Shown: in pieces, positions 3,829 through 39,825 of the stretch | How positions within the stretch are numbered: the stretch's first letter is position 1 | Layout: every line of letters starts with the position of its first letter | IMG/VR virus record: IMGVR_UViG_3300020201_000044 | Coordinates: 1-42,482 of that record | Source of the DNA: a virus | Length of the DNA stretch: 42,482 bases | Direction: 5' to 3' (one strand) | The notes under the pieces: model-generated | What the model was told of the DNA's origin: nothing | Databases searched by the model: none | What the model saw: only the letters and a program-made list of their open reading frames with translations | Made by a program: the position numbers and the translations under genes

Positions 3829-3905
3829 ATTTAGCCTCATTATACAAAGCGAAAAATCAATAACGGGCCGCTCAATTTCGAGAGGTCCTTTACCAGGAGT
3901 TCCTC

Positions 3906-4193
3906 ATGTTCAAGCCTATTTTGGCCCTTGCCCTGACCTTGCTCACCGCATCTGCATTCGCTGCAAATATTGAATGCGCGTTCATGACAAACAAAAAAGG
4001 GAAGGCAACTAAAAAGCTGGTACCTGTAAGCGTCGACGCTAAGCGCCTGGCGGATCACATCGGCGTAAAAACTTGCGATGGGGATCGTTTTGCGGAGCAA
4101 GCAGCGGGTAACGGCGGCATCAAAGCAACTCGTAGTGTTACTAAGGAAGAACGGAAGGCATATCTTTTGGACGGCGATGCTCTGAAGTTCTAA
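3906..4193 (+). CDS. Small exported protein with signal peptide
   Basis: A 95-residue protein that begins with a textbook Sec signal peptide: Lys at position 3, a hydrophobic core (PILALALTLLT), and a predicted cut after ASAFA. The mature part is about 75 residues, has two Cys (in IECAF and KTCDG) that could form a disulphide, and is otherwise basic and polar. The ATG follows AGGAG. A strong terminator sits just after the stop. A small periplasmic protein could alter the host envelope or exclude other phages, but no family was recognised. Confidence 0.7.
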   Translation: MFKPILALALTLLTASAFAANIECAFMTNKKGKATKKLVPVSVDAKRLADHIGVKTCDGDRFAEQAAGNGGIKATRSVTKEERKAYLLDGDALKF

Positions 4194-4220
4194 GTCAATC
4201 GGGTACTTAATTGAGTTATG

Positions 4221-4261
4221 AAAGGGCCCCATAAATTCGGGGCCCTTTCTTTTCTTTTCTT
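4221..4261 (+). terminator. Rho-independent terminator abutting the next ribosome site
   Basis: AAAGGGCCCC pairs perfectly with GGGGCCCTTT (10 bp, 8-base loop), followed by CTTTTCTTTTCTT. The GGAGG of the next gene begins at 4262, immediately after the T-rich tract. Confidence 0.85.
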
Positions 4262-4859: not shown

Positions 4860-5287
4860 TGAAGGTCGAGAAAATCATAATGTCGGATCGTGCTAAACCC
4901 TGGTGGGGCATACGTCAAGCCGACGGCCAGTTTTTCAAAGAGAATCCCGAGAGTAAAGGGTTTACGGCATGGTCAACCAAGCGGGCGGCGCTTGAATACC
5001 TCAATACCGTTATCCTTGAGAAACCCACGACTAATTATCGGACACTGGTCCAGGTCGAAGGTGGGCATGAGCTGAAAGTTTACGCCCATGCGATTACGGT
5101 CAATTTTTGGGAGTACTATATCACGTCCCCGCTAATCGAGGGTCAAGACATCGTATGGGCGTTAGTTATGGGGGATGAGCAGGAGATGGGGGACGTTTCT
5201 TTGAGTGAGATTAAGCCATATCTTAGATGTTTTACCCGCAATCTGAAGGATATCATGCCCGCTGCAGGATACCGGTGGAGGACATAA
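4856..5287 (+). CDS. Hypothetical protein, 143 residues
   Basis: Not recognised. The start overlaps the preceding stop (ATGA), with AGGAG upstream. The N-terminal part reads AKPWWGIRQADGQFF and then AWSTKRAALEYLN, a beta-then-helix pattern seen in small phage proteins of unknown role. It has no signal peptide, membrane helix or Cys motif. It is the last gene before the 780-base gene-free region with the iterons. Confidence 0.6.
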   Translation: MMKVEKIIMSDRAKPWWGIRQADGQFFKENPESKGFTAWSTKRAALEYLNTVILEKPTTNYRTLVQVEGGHELKVYAHAITVNFWEYYITSPLIEGQDIVWALVMGDEQEMGDVSLSEIKPYLRCFTRNLKDIMPAAGYRWRT

Positions 5288-5326
5288 CGATAAGGAACGA
5301 TGCTTTTCATCCTTTATATCCCACCG

Positions 5327-5336
5327 CGTTTAAACA
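5327..5336. repeat. CGTTTAAACA near-palindrome (left of iterons)
   Basis: Contains the 8-bp palindrome GTTTAAAC (5328-5335). With the copy at 5639-5648 it brackets the two iteron arrays. Confidence 0.45.
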
Positions 5337-5365
5337 TTCTACACAACGATAATGTCAAGGTTGTT

Positions 5366-5404
5366 GGGGGAGATTGGGGAGGAGGAGGAGAGGCGATGGG
5401 GGGG
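5366..5404 (+). repeat. G-rich purine tract, possible G-quadruplex
   Basis: An almost all-purine stretch with G runs of 5 (5366-5370), 4 (5376-5379) and 7 (5398-5404), and GG pairs between them. It could form a G-quadruplex on the upper strand and lies 55 bases before the first iteron. Confidence 0.4.
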
Positions 5405-5458
5405 ATATTTCCCGCCAGGTCTTGGGGATCTTTACCCATAACTCTCCCTCCCACCTTC

Positions 5459-5523
5459 TCACTAAGGATTCTCACTAAGTACTCTCACTATGTACAATCA
5501 CTATGTACAATCACTAAGCCCCG
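5459..5523 (+). repeat. Five tandem 13-bp iterons (TCACTAWG...)
   Basis: Units start at 5459, 5472, 5485, 5498 and 5511, exactly 13 bp apart. All begin TCACTA, followed by AGG, AGT, TGT, TGT and AGC. Units three and four are identical (TCACTATGTACAA). The strict period indicates adjacent binding sites for one protein. Confidence 0.8.
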
Positions 5524-5549
5524 CACCCTTCTCCCTCTCACCCTCTCAT

Positions 5550-5627
5550 TAGTGAGACTACATAATGAGAATACATAATGAGACGGTGTATTGAGAATGC
5601 ATACTGATACCCTATAGTGTGAGGTTT
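5550..5627 (-). repeat. Six 13-bp iterons in the opposite orientation
   Basis: Units start at 5550, 5563, 5576, 5589, 5602 and 5615, again 13 bp apart, with cores TAGTGAGA, TAATGAGA, TAATGAGA, TATTGAGA, TACTGATA and TAGTGTGA. TAGTGA is the reverse complement of TCACTA, so this array mirrors the one at 5459-5523. The offset between arrays is 39 bp, three full periods, so both share one register. Confidence 0.75.
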
Positions 5628-5638
5628 GAGGTACAAAG

Positions 5639-5648
5639 CGTTTAAACA
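5639..5648. repeat. CGTTTAAACA near-palindrome (right of iterons)
   Basis: Contains GTTTAAAC (5640-5647). It lies 12 bases after the last iteron. Confidence 0.45.
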
Positions 5649-5745
5649 TAGTGGCGGACTAGGGTGCCCCTCGCGCATTATTAAGGAGTTAGGGCGGGGG
5701 GTACCCCCAAAGCCCGCTTTCCATAATATAGGGATCGGGTCCCCC

Positions 5746-5920
5746 ACCCACATTTTAGAAGAAAGGGTTTTCTCCTTTTGTAGAATACCCCCCTCACCCA
5801 CATTTTAGAAGAAAGGGCTTTCTCCTTTTGTAGAATACCCACCCACATTTTAGAAGAAAGGGTTTTCTCCTTTTGTAGAATACCCTCCTCTACCCACATT
5901 TTAGAAGAAAGGGTTTTCTC
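5746..5920 (+). repeat. Four copies of a 42-bp repeat
   Basis: Copies begin at 5746, 5796, 5841 and 5892 (periods 50, 45 and 51). Each reads ACCCACATTTTAGAAGAAAG, then GGTTTTCTCCTTTTGTAGAA; the second copy has one base change and the fourth stops after TTTTCTC. AAAGG and CCTTT inside each unit could form a short hairpin. The uneven spacing breaks any reading frame, so the repeats act as DNA or RNA rather than protein. Confidence 0.8.
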
Positions 5921-6006
5921 GCCGACGAAAATCGCTCCATCCTGAGGCACTGGGATTTTCTGGAAGAAAGGGATTGACGCATTGCCCAAGTAGTCCTTTA
6001 CTCTTT

Positions 6007-6036
6007 TTGACAAAAGGGGGAACGGCTCGTTATTCT
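6007..6036 (+). promoter_or_regulatory. Sigma-70-type promoter of the morphogenesis block
   Basis: A perfect TTGACA (6007-6012), an 18-base spacer and TATTCT (6031-6036) lie 35 bases before the ATG at 6071. It fits transcription of the late block by host RNA polymerase; no phage polymerase gene was seen. Confidence 0.55.
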
Positions 6037-6070
6037 TGGGCTTAACTTAAATTCTTAAGGAGTTCCCCAA

Positions 6071-6550
6071 ATGAGCAAACGCGTTTTGGACCTAGAAACT
6101 GGGAAGTTCACCACCTACACCGGAAAATCCTGTGCTAAGTCCCTACAAGAGGCCGGACACCCAAACTTTCAAAAACCTGTAAAGGCGCTCAATCCCGCGC
6201 ATCCCACGTTCGCTATGGTGTCAAACGAAGAGAAAGAAGAAGTTACGGCCTTGGGCCTTGAGTCTTTGAGCGATGAAGAGCTTGACGCTGAACTTTCCAA
6301 GCGCAAGGCAATCCAGTCCGCAAAGGCCGCCAAGAAGCTTGCTGCCAAGGAAGAAGCAGCCACTGCAAAAGAGGGCGGGAGTCTGGGGGGTTTGACCCTT
6401 GAGGAGCTTAGCAAAATGCCCGTTGCCGCCATCAAAGGTCTTTTGGTTGAGAAGAAGGTGGATTTCTCCCGAATCCCGGCCTCTCCCAAGAAGCTCTTTG
6501 TGGATTTCGCCGCTCCTCACCTGGTGAAGTCTGAGCCCGACGATCTTTAA
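6071..6550 (+). CDS. Terminase-proximal protein with HeH/SAP-like C-terminus
   Basis: A 159-residue protein with AAGGAG before its ATG. The middle (about residues 55-105) is a long charged helix rich in Ala, Lys and Glu, possibly coiled coil. Residues about 110-150 read ELSKMPVAAIKGLLVEKKVD and then PKKLFVDFAAPHLV, which resembles HeH/LEM or SAP-type helix-extended loop-helix DNA-binding modules; this is a resemblance only. It is directly upstream of the large terminase, so a role in packaging initiation or as a second small terminase is possible. The tail is KSEPDDL, the acidic Asp-Leu ending shared with other proteins here. Confidence 0.65.
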   Translation: MSKRVLDLETGKFTTYTGKSCAKSLQEAGHPNFQKPVKALNPAHPTFAMVSNEEKEEVTALGLESLSDEELDAELSKRKAIQSAKAAKKLAAKEEAATAKEGGSLGGLTLEELSKMPVAAIKGLLVEKKVDFSRIPASPKKLFVDFAAPHLVKSEPDDL

Positions 6551-6553
6551 GGA

Positions 6554-8248
6554 ATGGACCAATCTCTGCTAAACAACACGGGCGTGACTCCTGAGGACGG
6601 AATCGTTAGGGAAGTCACCACCGGGTATCGGGCCCGCAAGCTTCAAAAGTCCTTGCACGCTATCGTCACGCGCTTCAACGTCCTGGTCTGCCATCGCCGC
6701 TTTGGGAAAACCGTCTGGGCCGTTAACGAGCTAATCCATAAGGCCCTGAACAATCCCCTGAGGAACCCGCAATATGCGTATGTGGCCCCCACCTACAAAC
6801 AGGTCAAGAAAATCGCCTGGAACTACTTTGTCGACTACACCCGGTTTCTTCCAGGCGCTACTCCTAATAAGTCAGAGCTGTGTATTTATATTGAGCGTCC
6901 TCACCGGCTTGACCCTGTTACTGGCAAATCGGATCCCGATGTTATTACCCTATACCTCATTGGCGCCGACGACCCAGACGCCCTCCGGGGGATGTACCTG
7001 GACGGAGCAGTCATCGACGAATTTGCCCAATGCGACCCCATCGTTTGGGGGCAAATCCTGCGCCCGTCCCTTGCCGACCGAAAGAAAATAGCCTGGGACC
7101 TGGGGATCAAAGAGGATATGGAAGGGATCAAGATGGAGCCTTGGGCCATCTTCATCGGAACCCCCAAAGGGCAAAACCATTTTTACCTCCGCTACAAGAA
7201 GGCCCAAGAATGTGAGGCCTTCTGCCACCTCTTCGAGTCCACCCACAACCTGAACGACGAACGCGCCGAGTGGGAAGAAATCGAGAGGTTCTACAATATC
7301 TTCGACGCCGGGGACCTGGAGTCTCTTTCAGAGAAAGATGCCACGGTCGTAATCGGCAAATGGCCGGCCGACACCCAGCGCCGGTACAAGGAATGGCGAA
7401 AGTATAAGGCGTGCAAGTCCTGGTTCACCGTCCTCTACAAAGCAAGCGAAACCGGCGTTTTGGACCGGGACGAACTGGACGAAATGCGCCAGGATCTTTC
7501 CCCCGAAGAGATTGAACAAGAATTGGAATGCTCCTTCACCGCCGCCATCCTGGGCTCCTACTGGGGGCACCTGGTGAATTCCGCCCGGCTTGAAGGGAGA
7601 ATCTGCATCCTGGCCTATAACCCCAAGTTCCCCGTGGACACCCATTGGGACATCGGTATTGGAGACAAGACCGCCATCTGGTTTCGCCAACAAACGCCCG
7701 AGGGTTTTAAGTACCTCCACTACTACGAGCAAAACGGCAAAGGAATTGACCACTACGCCGCCGTCATTGAGGCCCTGGCAAAACCCCCCGGCACCAGAAC
7801 CGAAGTGGACCCGGGAGAGTTTATCGAAGGAAGGGGCTTCCAGTACGGGCGCCACGTCTGGCCCCACGACGGTGCCGCCCAAGAATTTGGAACAGGGCAG
7901 ACCCGCCAAGAAACCGCCCGAGAAAAGGGCATCATCGTCCAAATCCAAGAGCGACAAGCAGTCGATGACGGCATCAACGCCGGAAGAAAACGCCTGCGGG
8001 TTTCCTTTTTCGACGAAAAGTATTGCGAAAAGGGCATTGATTGCCTCTATAATTACCAAAAGGAATACGACCAAAAGGCACGGATGTTTAAGAACAAGCC
8101 CTTGCATGACTGGTCGTCGCACGGGGCCTCCGCCTTTCGGTACTCATCCCTGGATGATCGGCCTTCCTACTTCCCCCACGACCAAAGGCGTGGGAAGATG
8201 GGGAAGAGCGCAAAAGCAAAAACGAATTATGACGAGTTCGCGGCCTAA
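6554..8248 (+). CDS. terL: Terminase large subunit (packaging ATPase and nuclease)
   Basis: A 564-residue protein with both enzyme centres of a large terminase. The ATPase has CHRRFGKT near residue 47 (an R-x-G-K-T Walker A variant usual in terminases) and GAVIDEFAQ near residue 150 (Walker B with the catalytic Glu). The nuclease half has DTHWDIGIGDKTAIWF near residue 360, the first acidic motif of the RNase H-like fold. It cuts concatemeric DNA and drives it into the prohead at the portal. The start is ATG 6554, three bases after the preceding stop; AAGGA touches the ATG, an unusually short gap that hints at coupled translation. Confidence 0.95.
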   Translation: MDQSLLNNTGVTPEDGIVREVTTGYRARKLQKSLHAIVTRFNVLVCHRRFGKTVWAVNELIHKALNNPLRNPQYAYVAPTYKQVKKIAWNYFVDYTRFLPGATPNKSELCIYIERPHRLDPVTGKSDPDVITLYLIGADDPDALRGMYLDGAVIDEFAQCDPIVWGQILRPSLADRKKIAWDLGIKEDMEGIKMEPWAIFIGTPKGQNHFYLRYKKAQECEAFCHLFESTHNLNDERAEWEEIERFYNIFDAGDLESLSEKDATVVIGKWPADTQRRYKEWRKYKACKSWFTVLYKASETGVLDRDELDEMRQDLSPEEIEQELECSFTAAILGSYWGHLVNSARLEGRICILAYNPKFPVDTHWDIGIGDKTAIWFRQQTPEGFKYLHYYEQNGKGIDHYAAVIEALAKPPGTRTEVDPGEFIEGRGFQYGRHVWPHDGAAQEFGTGQTRQETAREKGIIVQIQERQAVDDGINAGRKRLRVSFFDEKYCEKGIDCLYNYQKEYDQKARMFKNKPLHDWSSHGASAFRYSSLDDRPSYFPHDQRRGKMGKSAKAKTNYDEFAA

Positions 8249-8621: not shown

Positions 8622-10265
8622 ATGACCGTTTCCAAATTAGACCCCGCCCCTCTCAAGAATCCCGGAGAGGATCGCGCCAAGGCGGAGCTGGCCCATTACG
8701 CCCGTATGACCACCAAGCGGGACAATTTCCAACAAACTTGGAAGGAAGTTTCCCTCTACGTCGTCCCCGACAAAGATGGCGTCTTCGGGCATTCTACAAA
8801 AGGCGAAGAGAAGCACCGGCACCTCTACGACGGATACGCCGAACATTGCGTGGAGCTTCTGTCCGCCGCCCTGCACTCCATGCTGACCAACCCCACCACC
8901 CAATGGTTCTTCTTCACCTCCGGGCAGCTGGAGATGGACCGCCAGCCGGAAGTCCAAAAGTACCTGGGGGATTTCTCCCGCCAGGTCTTGGGGATCCTGA
9001 ACAACTCCAATTTCCAGTCCGAAGTCCATGAAGTCTTCATGGACCTTTGCTCTTTTGGGACTTCTGCCCTTCGGATCATGGAAGACGACGAGGACACCCT
9101 GCGCTTTCACGCCCGTCCCATCTACGAGCTGGTGATTGCCGAAAATCACTTGGGGATTGTGGACTACGTCGGCACCGAAGACGAAATGGACGTGCGCCAG
9201 GCGCTTCAGCAATTCGGGGAGAAGGCCTTTGGGGAGCACGCCAACAAGTTGAGGGCGGACCTTACCAAATGCATCAAGATCCACCACATCGTGCGCCCAC
9301 GTCGAAAGGACGAGACCAAAGGCACCAAGGGCCCCAACTCTTCGCCCTACATCTCCCTGCACATCTACAAAGAGGCCAATCTCATCCTCCAGGAAGAGGC
9401 CTTCTACACGTTCCCGTGGATTGTTCCCCGCTGGGTGAAACGCACCGGGGAAGCCTACGGACGTTCGCCCGCCATGAAGGCGCTTCCCGATATCCGGATG
9501 CGCAACACCATGCAGAAGTTCTACATCCGGGGCGTTCAGAAAATGGTGGATCCCCCGTGGATTGCCCCAGAAGACTCCATCATGGGGGACCTGGATTTGA
9601 CCCCGGGCTCCGTTTCTTCCGTGCGTCCAGGAATGGCCGATCAGATCCGCCCCCTGATTTCCGGCGGGCGCCCTGAAGTAGGCAAGGATCTCCTGGAAAT
9701 GAACAAGGAGACCATTAAGGCCTTCTTCTTTATCGACCAGCTTCAACTCCGCGACGGACCCCAGATGACGGCCACAGAGGTCAACACCCTGGTCCAGCAG
9801 CACCTTCGCCTTTTGGGCCCCATTCTGGGGCGCCTGAATTATGAATTCCTGAAGCTCATGATGGTTCGGATCGTGGACATCATGAAACGCAAGAACTTGA
9901 TCCCCACACCCCCTCGGGAACTGGCAGACAAAAACCCTCAGGTCTTCTTTGCGTCCGAGATCGCCAAAGCGCAATTGATGGGCGAAGCAGACACCATCAA
10001 CCGCTTTATGGGCATTATTAGCGGACTTGTCGCTATTGACCCAAGTGTGTACGATCTCCTGGATTCTGAAAAATTTGTAAACTACATGGCCAACCTCTAC
10101 GGCGTGACCCGCGAAATCTTCCGCTCCAAAGCGGAAGTTAAGCAAGTCCAGGCCGCTCGCGCAGAGGCCCAAAACAAAGCAGTTCAGGGAGAGGAAAACC
10201 TCATTCAGGCGGAGACCATGCAAAAGGGTGCCGCTGGAGTCAAGGCCCTAAAAGAGAGCGCGTAA
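8622..10265 (+). CDS. Portal protein (head-tail connector, T7 gp8 type)
   Basis: A 547-residue protein, close to the size of T7 gp8. Several connector-family traits are visible: an N-terminal stretch of helix leading to YVVPDKDG, LLSAALHSMLTNPTTQWF near residue 85, FGTSALRIMED near residue 150, a conserved WVKRTGEAYGRSPAMKALPD near residue 275, and a long helix with PQMTATEVNTLVQQHLRLLG near residue 385. The last 60 residues are a charged helix forming the crown. Twelve copies would form the ring through which DNA enters and leaves, docking TerL during packaging and the tail later. Confidence 0.95.
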   Translation: MTVSKLDPAPLKNPGEDRAKAELAHYARMTTKRDNFQQTWKEVSLYVVPDKDGVFGHSTKGEEKHRHLYDGYAEHCVELLSAALHSMLTNPTTQWFFFTSGQLEMDRQPEVQKYLGDFSRQVLGILNNSNFQSEVHEVFMDLCSFGTSALRIMEDDEDTLRFHARPIYELVIAENHLGIVDYVGTEDEMDVRQALQQFGEKAFGEHANKLRADLTKCIKIHHIVRPRRKDETKGTKGPNSSPYISLHIYKEANLILQEEAFYTFPWIVPRWVKRTGEAYGRSPAMKALPDIRMRNTMQKFYIRGVQKMVDPPWIAPEDSIMGDLDLTPGSVSSVRPGMADQIRPLISGGRPEVGKDLLEMNKETIKAFFFIDQLQLRDGPQMTATEVNTLVQQHLRLLGPILGRLNYEFLKLMMVRIVDIMKRKNLIPTPPRELADKNPQVFFASEIAKAQLMGEADTINRFMGIISGLVAIDPSVYDLLDSEKFVNYMANLYGVTREIFRSKAEVKQVQAARAEAQNKAVQGEENLIQAETMQKGAAGVKALKESA

Positions 10266-35365: not shown

Positions 35366-35782
35366 TTAGAGATCGTCTGAGTCTTCGTCGATCTTCTTCA
35401 TATAGGCGGAATCCTCGTCCGCATCGGCCACACCAATGTCCAGGTTGATGGCCTCTTTGCCTTTGTAAGCGCCTTTGGTCATGATTTCCCTGCCCAGGTA
35501 CTCCACCCGTACAACCGACCCGATCTCCACTTTCTCCATTACGTTGTCCAGGAGAGTGGCGGAATTGAGGACAAAATCTTTCCCGATAACCAGCTTCTTG
35601 GCCGCTTCCTTATTCCCGAAGTGGCCTTCTTCCAGTTCCAGGACGTAGTTGGGCTTCCCGTAACGGTCCTCCTCGATCTTCTCGATGAGCTTGCCCATCA
35701 CATAATCGCCCTCGTCCCACTGAGACCAGGGGCGATAGTTTTTGGCACCAGTCAGCTTTTTGAAAACTCTCTTATTCGGCAT
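35366..35782 (-). CDS. Putative single-stranded DNA-binding protein (OB-like)
   Basis: A 138-residue protein with a very strong GAGGAGG site. The pattern W-x-x-GDYVMGKL, then RYGKPNYVLELEE, a helix and IGSVVRVEYLGREI followed by YKGKEAINLDIG fits a five-stranded OB fold as in several phage ssDNA-binding proteins. The last 20 residues are acidic and end DEDSDDL. Acidic C-terminal tips of SSBs recruit partner enzymes; here the polymerase next door carries a like ending. Its position between polymerase and nuclease supports the assignment, but the family was not directly recognised. Confidence 0.7.
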   Translation of the reverse strand: MPNKRVFKKLTGAKNYRPWSQWDEGDYVMGKLIEKIEEDRYGKPNYVLELEEGHFGNKEAAKKLVIGKDFVLNSATLLDNVMEKVEIGSVVRVEYLGREIMTKGAYKGKEAINLDIGVADADEDSAYMKKIDEDSDDL

Positions 35783-38692: not shown

Positions 38693-39550
38693 TCACTCCG
38701 TTTGTTTAAATATGATCCGCCCATTTTCTAGGGCGCCAAATCCGAATTTACTGACACAGGTCCCACTCTCAGGGGGGTGCTTGCAAGGACTCTTTTTAGA
38801 CCCACTCCCAAATGTGTAATATTGTTTTCCGTTCTTTATATATGAGGCGGCGAGATGTTCGTGCCCGTGGATGACGGTCACTTGCGCCGGAAGGGAATCC
38901 AAAAACCCCTTGTAATCCCATGAAATGTCACTCCTGTGATTAGAGAATCCCACTCGATTGTGATGGGCCAGGAGGTACGTGGTTTTCCTCTCGCAGAGTT
39001 TTACGGCCCTACGGATGAATTTTTCTTGGTTGCTCAAGATGCCGGGTTCCTTGGCCACAGAATACACCGTGGAGTCCATCGAAATCACGCAGGCATTCGG
39101 GAAGGTGAAGGCCCGATAGTAATTTTTAAAGGAACATCCATAGGTATCCGAATTGGCCGCCATCCAATTCCGCTCCTCCCTGTTCAGGGAGAGACTGTCA
39201 TGGTTCCCCAGGATACAAACGGTCGTCCAAAGGGAATTCAGGAATGGGTTAATGTTCTCTGCAAAATCCTGAGGGCCTGAGATCCCAGTAGGGTACCCTA
39301 AATCCCCGAGCAGGAACACGAATTGGGGATTGAATCCCCGAATTCCCTCAATCAGCCTCACCCTTTCAACCCGGTTCTCTCCCGTATCCCCTACAAAAAC
39401 GGCCCGCTCCAGGGGGGAGGCGACCCTGGTCACGTTGACCTCAAACCCCCTCACCTCGTAGGCCCAATAGGCCCCGGCCCCGCAAATGGCGAGGGCGGCG
39501 GTCCCCAGGACTATCTCCGCTTTCCCCTTCAACTTTTTCCAAAAGCTCAT
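38693..39550 (-). CDS. Membrane-anchored calcineurin-like metallophosphoesterase
   Basis: A 285-residue protein. A basic start and one hydrophobic helix (AEIVLGTAALAICGAGAYWA) make a signal anchor. The outer part has the metallophosphoesterase motifs in order: VFVGDTG, FLLGDLGYP, ILGNHDS, LLAHHNRVG and VIHGHEHLA. The GDTG start in place of D-x-H resembles purple acid phosphatases. It has several Cys, consistent with periplasmic disulphides. The enzyme would remove phosphate from envelope or matrix substrates. The stop is 5 bases before the GH114 ATG and its ATG overlaps the stop of the 39547 gene, so the three form an operon. Confidence 0.88.
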   Translation of the reverse strand: MSFWKKLKGKAEIVLGTAALAICGAGAYWAYEVRGFEVNVTRVASPLERAVFVGDTGENRVERVRLIEGIRGFNPQFVFLLGDLGYPTGISGPQDFAENINPFLNSLWTTVCILGNHDSLSLNREERNWMAANSDTYGCSFKNYYRAFTFPNACVISMDSTVYSVAKEPGILSNQEKFIRRAVKLCERKTTYLLAHHNRVGFSNHRSDISWDYKGFLDSLPAQVTVIHGHEHLAASYIKNGKQYYTFGSGSKKSPCKHPPESGTCVSKFGFGALENGRIIFKQTE

Positions 39551-39825
39551 AAATCATCCTCTTCTTCTTGGCCGATACGTTTAAACGCTTCTCGTCTCTT
39601 TAAAAAATCCCGCATACTTTTGGAGAGGGTGTCCAGGTTAGTCCATTTGTGCGCATTACTCCAAACTGCCTCCCCCTCCTTCTTAACCTCGAACGAAATG
39701 TAGGCGTGGTCGATGAAGGACATGTCGTAGCGGACCTCGTAACCGGACTCGTACATCTCCCCCAGGGCGACTCCAAAATCTTGCCATTTGGCCTTATTTC
39801 CGGGTTCCATTCTTTTTAAACTCAT
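39547..39825 (-). CDS. Hypothetical protein with acidic DDL tail, 92 residues
   Basis: Not recognised. A small alpha/beta protein (DFGVALGEMYESGYEVRYDM, then SFEVKKEGEAVW) ending in a Lys/Arg helix (RDFLKRREAFKRIG) and the acidic QEEEDDL. ATG 39825 lacks a strong ribosome site; ATG 39810 is an alternative. Its start overlaps the Fis-like gene by 32 bases and its stop overlaps the phosphoesterase ATG. The basic helix followed by an acidic tip resembles DNA- or RNA-binding proteins with a self-masking tail. Confidence 0.6.
   Translation of the reverse strand: MSLKRMEPGNKAKWQDFGVALGEMYESGYEVRYDMSFIDHAYISFEVKKEGEAVWSNAHKWTNLDTLSKSMRDFLKRREAFKRIGQEEEDDL

Follow-up and report, generated by a model that had tools for sequence, protein, structure and literature searches.

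Facing rows of 13-bp sites before the packaging operon of an environmental podovirus: a possible operator-like array

What might eleven short repeats, drawn up in two facing rows on one lattice, be doing in front of the packaging genes of a phage? The question is posed by IMG/VR record IMGVR_UViG_3300020201_000044, all 42,482 bp of which (without end repeats) we call the window. The arrays lie within a 783-bp noncoding gap (5288–6070). To its left, genes on the plus strand end at 5287; to its right, the packaging operon, that of the large terminase, begins at 6071. Our answer, offered tentatively and with real room for others, is that the arrays may form an operator-like platform which stands at the start of the packaging operon and serves one phage regulator, probably a Cro/YdaS-type protein. 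The features in and beside the gap are these:

5326–5337, no strand: GCGTTTAAACAT, left flanking direct repeat
5337–5352, minus: TTATCGTTGTGTAGAA, weaker site left of the arrays
5456–5523, plus: left array, five direct 13-bp units of TTCTCACTATGTA type, step 13
5524–5549, no strand: lattice positions 5524 and 5537, degenerate, pyrimidine-rich on the plus strand
5543–5558, no strand: palindrome-like CTCTCATTAGTGAGAC, inner edge of the right array
5550–5627, minus: right array, six oppositely oriented units on the lattice of the left array, the sixth degenerate
5591–5618, plus: TTGAGA-16-TATAGT within the right array, sigma-70-like by consensus alone
5638–5649, no strand: GCGTTTAAACAT, the direct repeat on the right flank, at 312 bp from the left copy
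5697–5708, no strand: palindrome GGGGGTACCCCC, right of the arrays, found before the terminase repeats of several relatives too
5741–5920, plus: repeat of about 50 bp, 3.7 copies, with TTCTCCTTTTGTAGAA in three (5770, 5820, 5865) and a degenerate one at 5916
6007–6036, plus: TTGACA-18-TATTCT ahead of the packaging operon, sigma-70-like by consensus alone
6071–6550, plus: first gene to the right of the gap, encoding a small protein with an acidic tail for which a family search found none
6554–8248, plus: large terminase subunit (TerL)

The arrays are real. Five TCACTA units start at 5459, 5472, 5485, 5498 and 5511 on the plus strand, at a step of 13 bp, and they face a right arm made of TAGTGA (5550), TAATGA (5563), TAATGA (5576), TATTGA (5589), TACTGA (5602) and TAGTGT (5615). 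A preliminary description had put eleven sites on one 13-bp lattice, which is where they are, although only five of its six TANTGA units are exact, TAGTGT being mismatched; its 39-bp gap between the arrays is right only from start to start (5511 to 5550). The conserved unit is wider than the hexamer, with the majority consensus of the eleven units reading TCACTATGTACTC, the equivalent of ...TTCTCACTATGTA... in tandem. A search for four in-phase TCANTA units matches the window four times, twice in each arm with overlap, and matches none of 100 dinucleotide shuffles. A common register for both arms is by itself, as a matter of arithmetic, a 1-in-13 coincidence. The 13-bp step makes 1.24 turns at 10.5 bp per turn, adding about 0.24 turn per site, and the units are thus out of helical phase. 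Promoter-like consensus matches number four against 1.6 expected. To the left of the arrays runs a G-rich purine tract (5363–5412, 76% purine), followed by a pyrimidine-rich stretch to about 5549.

Whose DNA is this? The phage had been taken for a T7-like podovirus, an assignment that the proteins scanned do not support: they include no T7 hallmark and no RNA polymerase, several large open reading frames being without a match. Its replication genes encode PolA, an SNF2-type helicase and an SSB-like protein. Structural genes occupy the plus strand to about 31 kb, and the genes for PolA, the SSB-like protein, a nuclease and the SNF2-type helicase are on the minus strand. By TerL, portal and major capsid protein (MCP), the nearest named relatives are HTVC010P-type pelagiphages and VP2-type vibriophages, and to Vibrio phage VP2 and pelagiphage HTVC010P themselves it is distantly related (identity with VP2 is 28% for TerL, 28% for portal and 26% for MCP). 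Among phage records, positions 1–25000 of the window have no near match and the gap matches at chance level only; 72,556 plasmid records gave no match to the gap. We set aside a Silvanigrella phage, CP017838, where only one of the 17 window proteins compared finds a match (polA, 31–32%) and where a tandem-repeat search finds no such array. A search for the host in genome contigs returned four weak matches to metagenome-assembled genomes (35–48%) and no safe host.

There is one close relative, L001. It is 98% identical and keeps all eleven sites. Across the 172-bp array stretch it differs by three substitutions and no indels, whereas other parts of the gap account for nine indel bases; this is consistent with a phase that has been kept, and is too little for proof. 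Because no relative beyond L001 keeps the array, its conservation cannot be judged. L001 also bears on the apparently noncoding character of the array stretch: an open reading frame at 5300–5578 (plus) is frameshifted there; another, 5538–5801 (minus), is still open, but its start falls inside the 50-bp repeats. The lengths of the G-runs in the purine tract differ between the two sequences. A 31-bp stretch of the gap (5400–5430), which is present in L001, resembles positions 8966–8996 in the portal gene, in the same sense and with two mismatches; the portal copy is present in L004.

How rare is the layout? A scan of 2.9 million viral contigs, which may leave out the window's own record, for four TCANTA units at 13-bp steps found 22 stretches: the facing one of L001 and 21 plain tandem ones. 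The earlier view that a mirror-image array is unusual is right as far as the exact 13-bp layout goes, but VP2-type phages carry facing arrays built of a different unit. In Enhodamvirus VP2, VP5 and phiVC8 (VP2 39080–39410), likewise, one short word stands in facing rows in a noncoding control region, here as GGTGGACAC/GTGTCCACC; VP2 has 15 GGACA/TGTCC in 600 bp against 1.4 expected, and the facing array is kept in the five cultured phages aligned (VP2, VP5, JSF15, JSF9 and phiVC8). The differences are just as plain. The VP2-type unit is GGTGGACAC, its step is 9 bp with irregular spacing, and it occupies the early control region, not the place before TerL. Facing arrays thus occur elsewhere in the wider group, with differing words, spacing and place. 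At 39183–39307 of VP2 (L130), the facing GGTGGACAC rows have perfect 26-bp inverted arms. The accessible part of the phiVC8 paper (PMC4802629) does not describe the VP2-type array, and searches of open PMC text for operator arrays and for iterons, whether of 13 bp or of P4, turned up nothing on a facing 13-bp layout. Since a parallel facing array is present in culturable VP2-type vibriophages, the question of what such arrays do could be put to a laboratory phage.

The unit of our array has a second home. Outside the array, TTCTCACTATGTA recurs only in a control region at 595–1347, 4.6 kb away, between an early gene that starts at 592 and the gene for a Cro/YdaS-type repressor, and there it belongs to a palindrome, TTCTC-N6-GAGAA. 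The repeats of about 50 bp downstream of the arrays contain a related word. The features at this end of the window are as follows:

1–592, minus: 5' part of an early gene that runs off the end of the window, similar to the DUF5906 protein of L031, alternative binder
832–847, plus: TTCTCGCTATGTAGAA, both unit and palindrome in one, within the second control region (595–1347)
869–884, plus: TTCTCCCTATGTATAA, of the same type as TTCTCGCTATGTAGAA
895–910, no strand: TTCTCCTTAGGGAGAA palindrome, a perfect TTCTCC-TTAG-GGAGAA inverted repeat
1063–1078, minus: TTATCGTTCTGTAGAA, weaker site, near-identical to 5337–5352
1348–1677, minus: Cro/YdaS/CI-type HTH protein, favoured candidate binder
2155–2742, plus: small terminase subunit (TerS), Sf6 gp1-like fold in an AlphaFold model

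Exact copies of TTCTCNCTATGTA stand at 832 and 869. When a consensus drawn from the array only was run in its 13 rotations with up to two mismatches, it matched just 830–833 and 869–870 outside the array, 37 bp apart; two matches within 100 bp turn up in 1% of 100 Markov sequences. The two best outside matches of an array weight matrix, 894 (minus) and 826 (plus), are again both in this region, at scores of 13.3 and 10.8 bits that fall within the range of chance maxima (mean 11.0, 95% at 14.4). The palindrome occurs without mismatch at 832, 895, 5770, 5820 and 5865 and, with one mismatch allowed, has 29 matches against 5.1 expected (both strands counted), a surplus owed in part to the tandem repeats themselves and to a pattern drawn up after the sites were seen. 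Relaxed to TTCTC-N6-KAGAA, the palindrome covers three of the 50-bp repeats as well. Region 595–1347 and the gap have 78 13-mers in common at up to two mismatches, where 60 nulls gave a mean of 20 and a maximum of 41; the best single pairwise matches between the two are marginal, 0.06–0.09 of nulls being at least as good. It is on clustering and place, then, that the link between early sites and array rests, single matches being marginal and matrix scores within chance range, and the statistical support for an array-type site at more than one control region is moderate. Among relatives, L034 shows the motif shared by early region and gap only weakly (0.13), while L031 (0.41), L032 (0.99) and L002 (0.67) lack it; it reaches significance in none of the four. 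A word near 806 that we considered as a further site at 26-bp spacing starts at 807, and the spacing fails.

Which protein might read these sites? The preliminary description had spoken of an iteron-like array with a protein to bind it, and that much we would uphold, together with its remark that the window has no plasmid-type Rep gene, for none was found. The HTH protein of 1348–1677 is modelled with a block-mean pLDDT of 90–94 over residues 1–60, and a Foldseek search with the model puts the YdaS N-domain 8co2 (probability 1.00, E 0.043) and Xfaso-1 Cro 3bd1 (0.99, E 0.10) first. We had thought of YdaS as reading an N6-spaced palindrome, wrongly; the abstract of the source gives that site to YdaT.

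The working model that we favour, tentatively as we have said, would run as follows. The eleven asymmetric 13-bp sites (TTCTCACTATGTA) would be bound by one phage-encoded, sequence-specific DNA-binding protein, by preference the Cro/YdaS-type protein encoded beside the early sites (1348–1677). The palindromic versions, TTCTC-N6-GAGAA, in the early region (832–910) and in the 50-bp repeats would be targets of that protein too. Bound side by side and in mirror image on the lattice, it might cover the gap and the promoter-like 5591–5618 with a nucleoprotein complex, through which transcription of the packaging and late operon could be switched in step with the early operon. A site at more than one control region and a repressor-type gene beside such sites are what an operator array should have, and both are present; promoter overlap amounts to the consensus match at 5591–5618 only. 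Repressor operators seldom come in rows of five or six at fixed spacing. The stoperators of mycobacteriophage L5-type repressors are likewise asymmetric and 13 bp long, but they are scattered singly over the genome, where ours form a lattice.

A replication origin is the alternative closest to hand. The array would then be made of iterons for a phage initiator, for instance the DUF5906 primase-helicase encoded from 592 leftwards, which palindromic half-iterons near its own gene would help to autoregulate; or else it would be an accessory cis element for an origin in the early region. Palindromic half-iterons near the initiator gene do serve autoregulation in iteron plasmids, and equally spaced tandem units, such as the array has, are typical of initiator sites. 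L031 and L032 both encode a DUF5906 protein next to the early region, and the cut reading frame at 592 is similar to it; an AT-rich stretch (945–1019, 70–72% in 50-bp windows) adjoins the early sites; and VP2-type phages have clustered facing sites beside A-tracts. Yet no AT-rich element adjoins the array itself, the gap reaching at most 66% AT per 50 bp in a window inside the arrays and the stretch at 945–1019 being the nearest one seen. Iteron origins, those of lambda and of plasmids, share with it the multiple copies of an initiator-site-like word, but plasmid iterons are generally in helical phase, going by the part of PMC5043065 that treats them, and the 13-bp steps are not; the initiator here is only a candidate. 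Cumulative GC skew, a check proposed at the outset, does peak near 5.5 kb, passing from positive to negative, but is confounded by gene strand and is of no help. We find an initiator-dependent origin, as first suggested for the arrays, possible but rather unlikely. A bolder scheme joins the two ideas. One initiator or regulator would read the 13-bp word both as palindromes (in dimer mode, by the primase gene in the early region) and, 4.6 kb away before the terminase operon, as a lattice of direct repeats in mirror image, coupling the start of replication to the onset of packaging in a P4-like or mini-F-like bipartite control. In phage P4, ori and crr carry one iteron family at two places kilobases apart, in both orientations; the two-place arrangement is alike, whereas unit and layout differ and no alpha-type protein is in evidence here. 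We hold this scheme to be improbable. If one protein does read both palindromes and a phased lattice, a little-studied group of environmental podoviruses would have in it a simple means by which early, replication and packaging functions could be timed.

Could the gap instead be the cos or pac region, its arrays bound by a ring of small terminase? It lies directly before the large terminase operon, and the TerS fold is supported by its model, with block-mean pLDDT about 84–94 over residues 51–120 (low elsewhere) and Sf6 gp1 first in the model search (probability 0.99–1.00, E-values 0.025 and above). TerL relatives (46–63%) have noncoding gaps at the corresponding place. Six of eleven relatives with at least 755 bp upstream (L001 and the window not counted, L028–L030 dropped as too short) have a 45–64-bp tandem repeat within 1.5 kb of TerL, against 0 in 100 Markov shuffles each, and four of the eleven have a GGGG-N-CCCC palindrome before the repeat. 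Such a palindrome lies within 2.5 kb upstream of TerL in 17 of 76 loci and in the downstream part of one (upstream lengths vary, L001 is included, and six of the 82 loci, with less than 250 bp upstream, were dropped). Because 37 of 100 shuffles of the window's own GC-rich upstream also give one, its weight comes from the relatives. The GGGGGTACCCCC palindrome starts 43–49 bp before tandem repeats of about 50 bp in the window, L031, L033 and L038, and the two may together form a module of this family, for cos/pac or for regulation. For phiVC8, a tandem repeat lying 299 bp ahead of terS has been proposed to contain the cos, according to the section of PMC4802629 on it: direct repeats, noncoding and upstream of terminase genes as here, but with no 13-bp facing array, and as a cos only proposed. 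Against packaging, the 13-bp arrays are absent from the relatives that keep palindrome and repeats, four contigs (window, G001, G002 and G003) cross the gap with no end there, and the array motif occurs in the early control region as well; we think it improbable that the arrays serve packaging. Still less credible, indeed very improbable, is that the rows are arms of a long RNA (or cruciform) stem acting after transcription. Compared with shuffles, either strand folds better (z −4.3 and −3.6), but any facing array of sites folds by construction, and the arms are similar because a unit is repeated. Unit likeness is 8.9 of 13 within the left arm and 8.2 of 13 across arms; the nested register of the predicted plus-strand fold averages 8.6, one other register (i+j=4, three unit pairs) reaches 10.7, and Rfam has no match. 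On this unit-by-unit test we rejected an RNA stem as the main reading. That leaves a partition or centromere-like site, a site for a host protein or a functionless remnant, together an improbable group. Rows of short repeats at fixed spacing do resemble ParR/TubR-type centromeres, and two copies of GTTTAAAC flank the arrays 312 bp apart, but no ParA, ParM or TubZ, nor a motor and adaptor pair such as a ParMRC-type system has, was found among the proteins scanned, and the array is kept by no relative beyond L001.

Some smaller observations belong beside these. GGGGGTACCCCC(AA) lies upstream of TerL at 5696–5708 in the window, at 7354 in L031, 4273 in L033 and 3813 in L038, and also in L035 and L041. 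The gap of L033 carries another word, GTAACTGGCAAC, which occurs there in both directions; at 3895–4229 L033 has GTTGCCAGTTACG-type direct repeats 312 bp apart, the second about 57 bp before GGGGGCACCCCC, and the window's counterpart is the pair of GCGTTTAAACAT copies at the same spacing, the second 59 bp before the palindrome. GTTTAAAC occurs 11 times in the window against 0.52 expected (2982, 3549, 5328, 5640, 17317, 24120, 31110, 32381, 34699, 37612 and 39579) and 0–2 times in the relatives G001, G002 and G003. Lastly, acidic -DDL tails end five unrelated proteins (1348–1677, 2155–2742, 6071–6550, 35366–35782 and 39547–39825) and some of their homologues in relatives; they are perhaps a shared docking or degradation tag.
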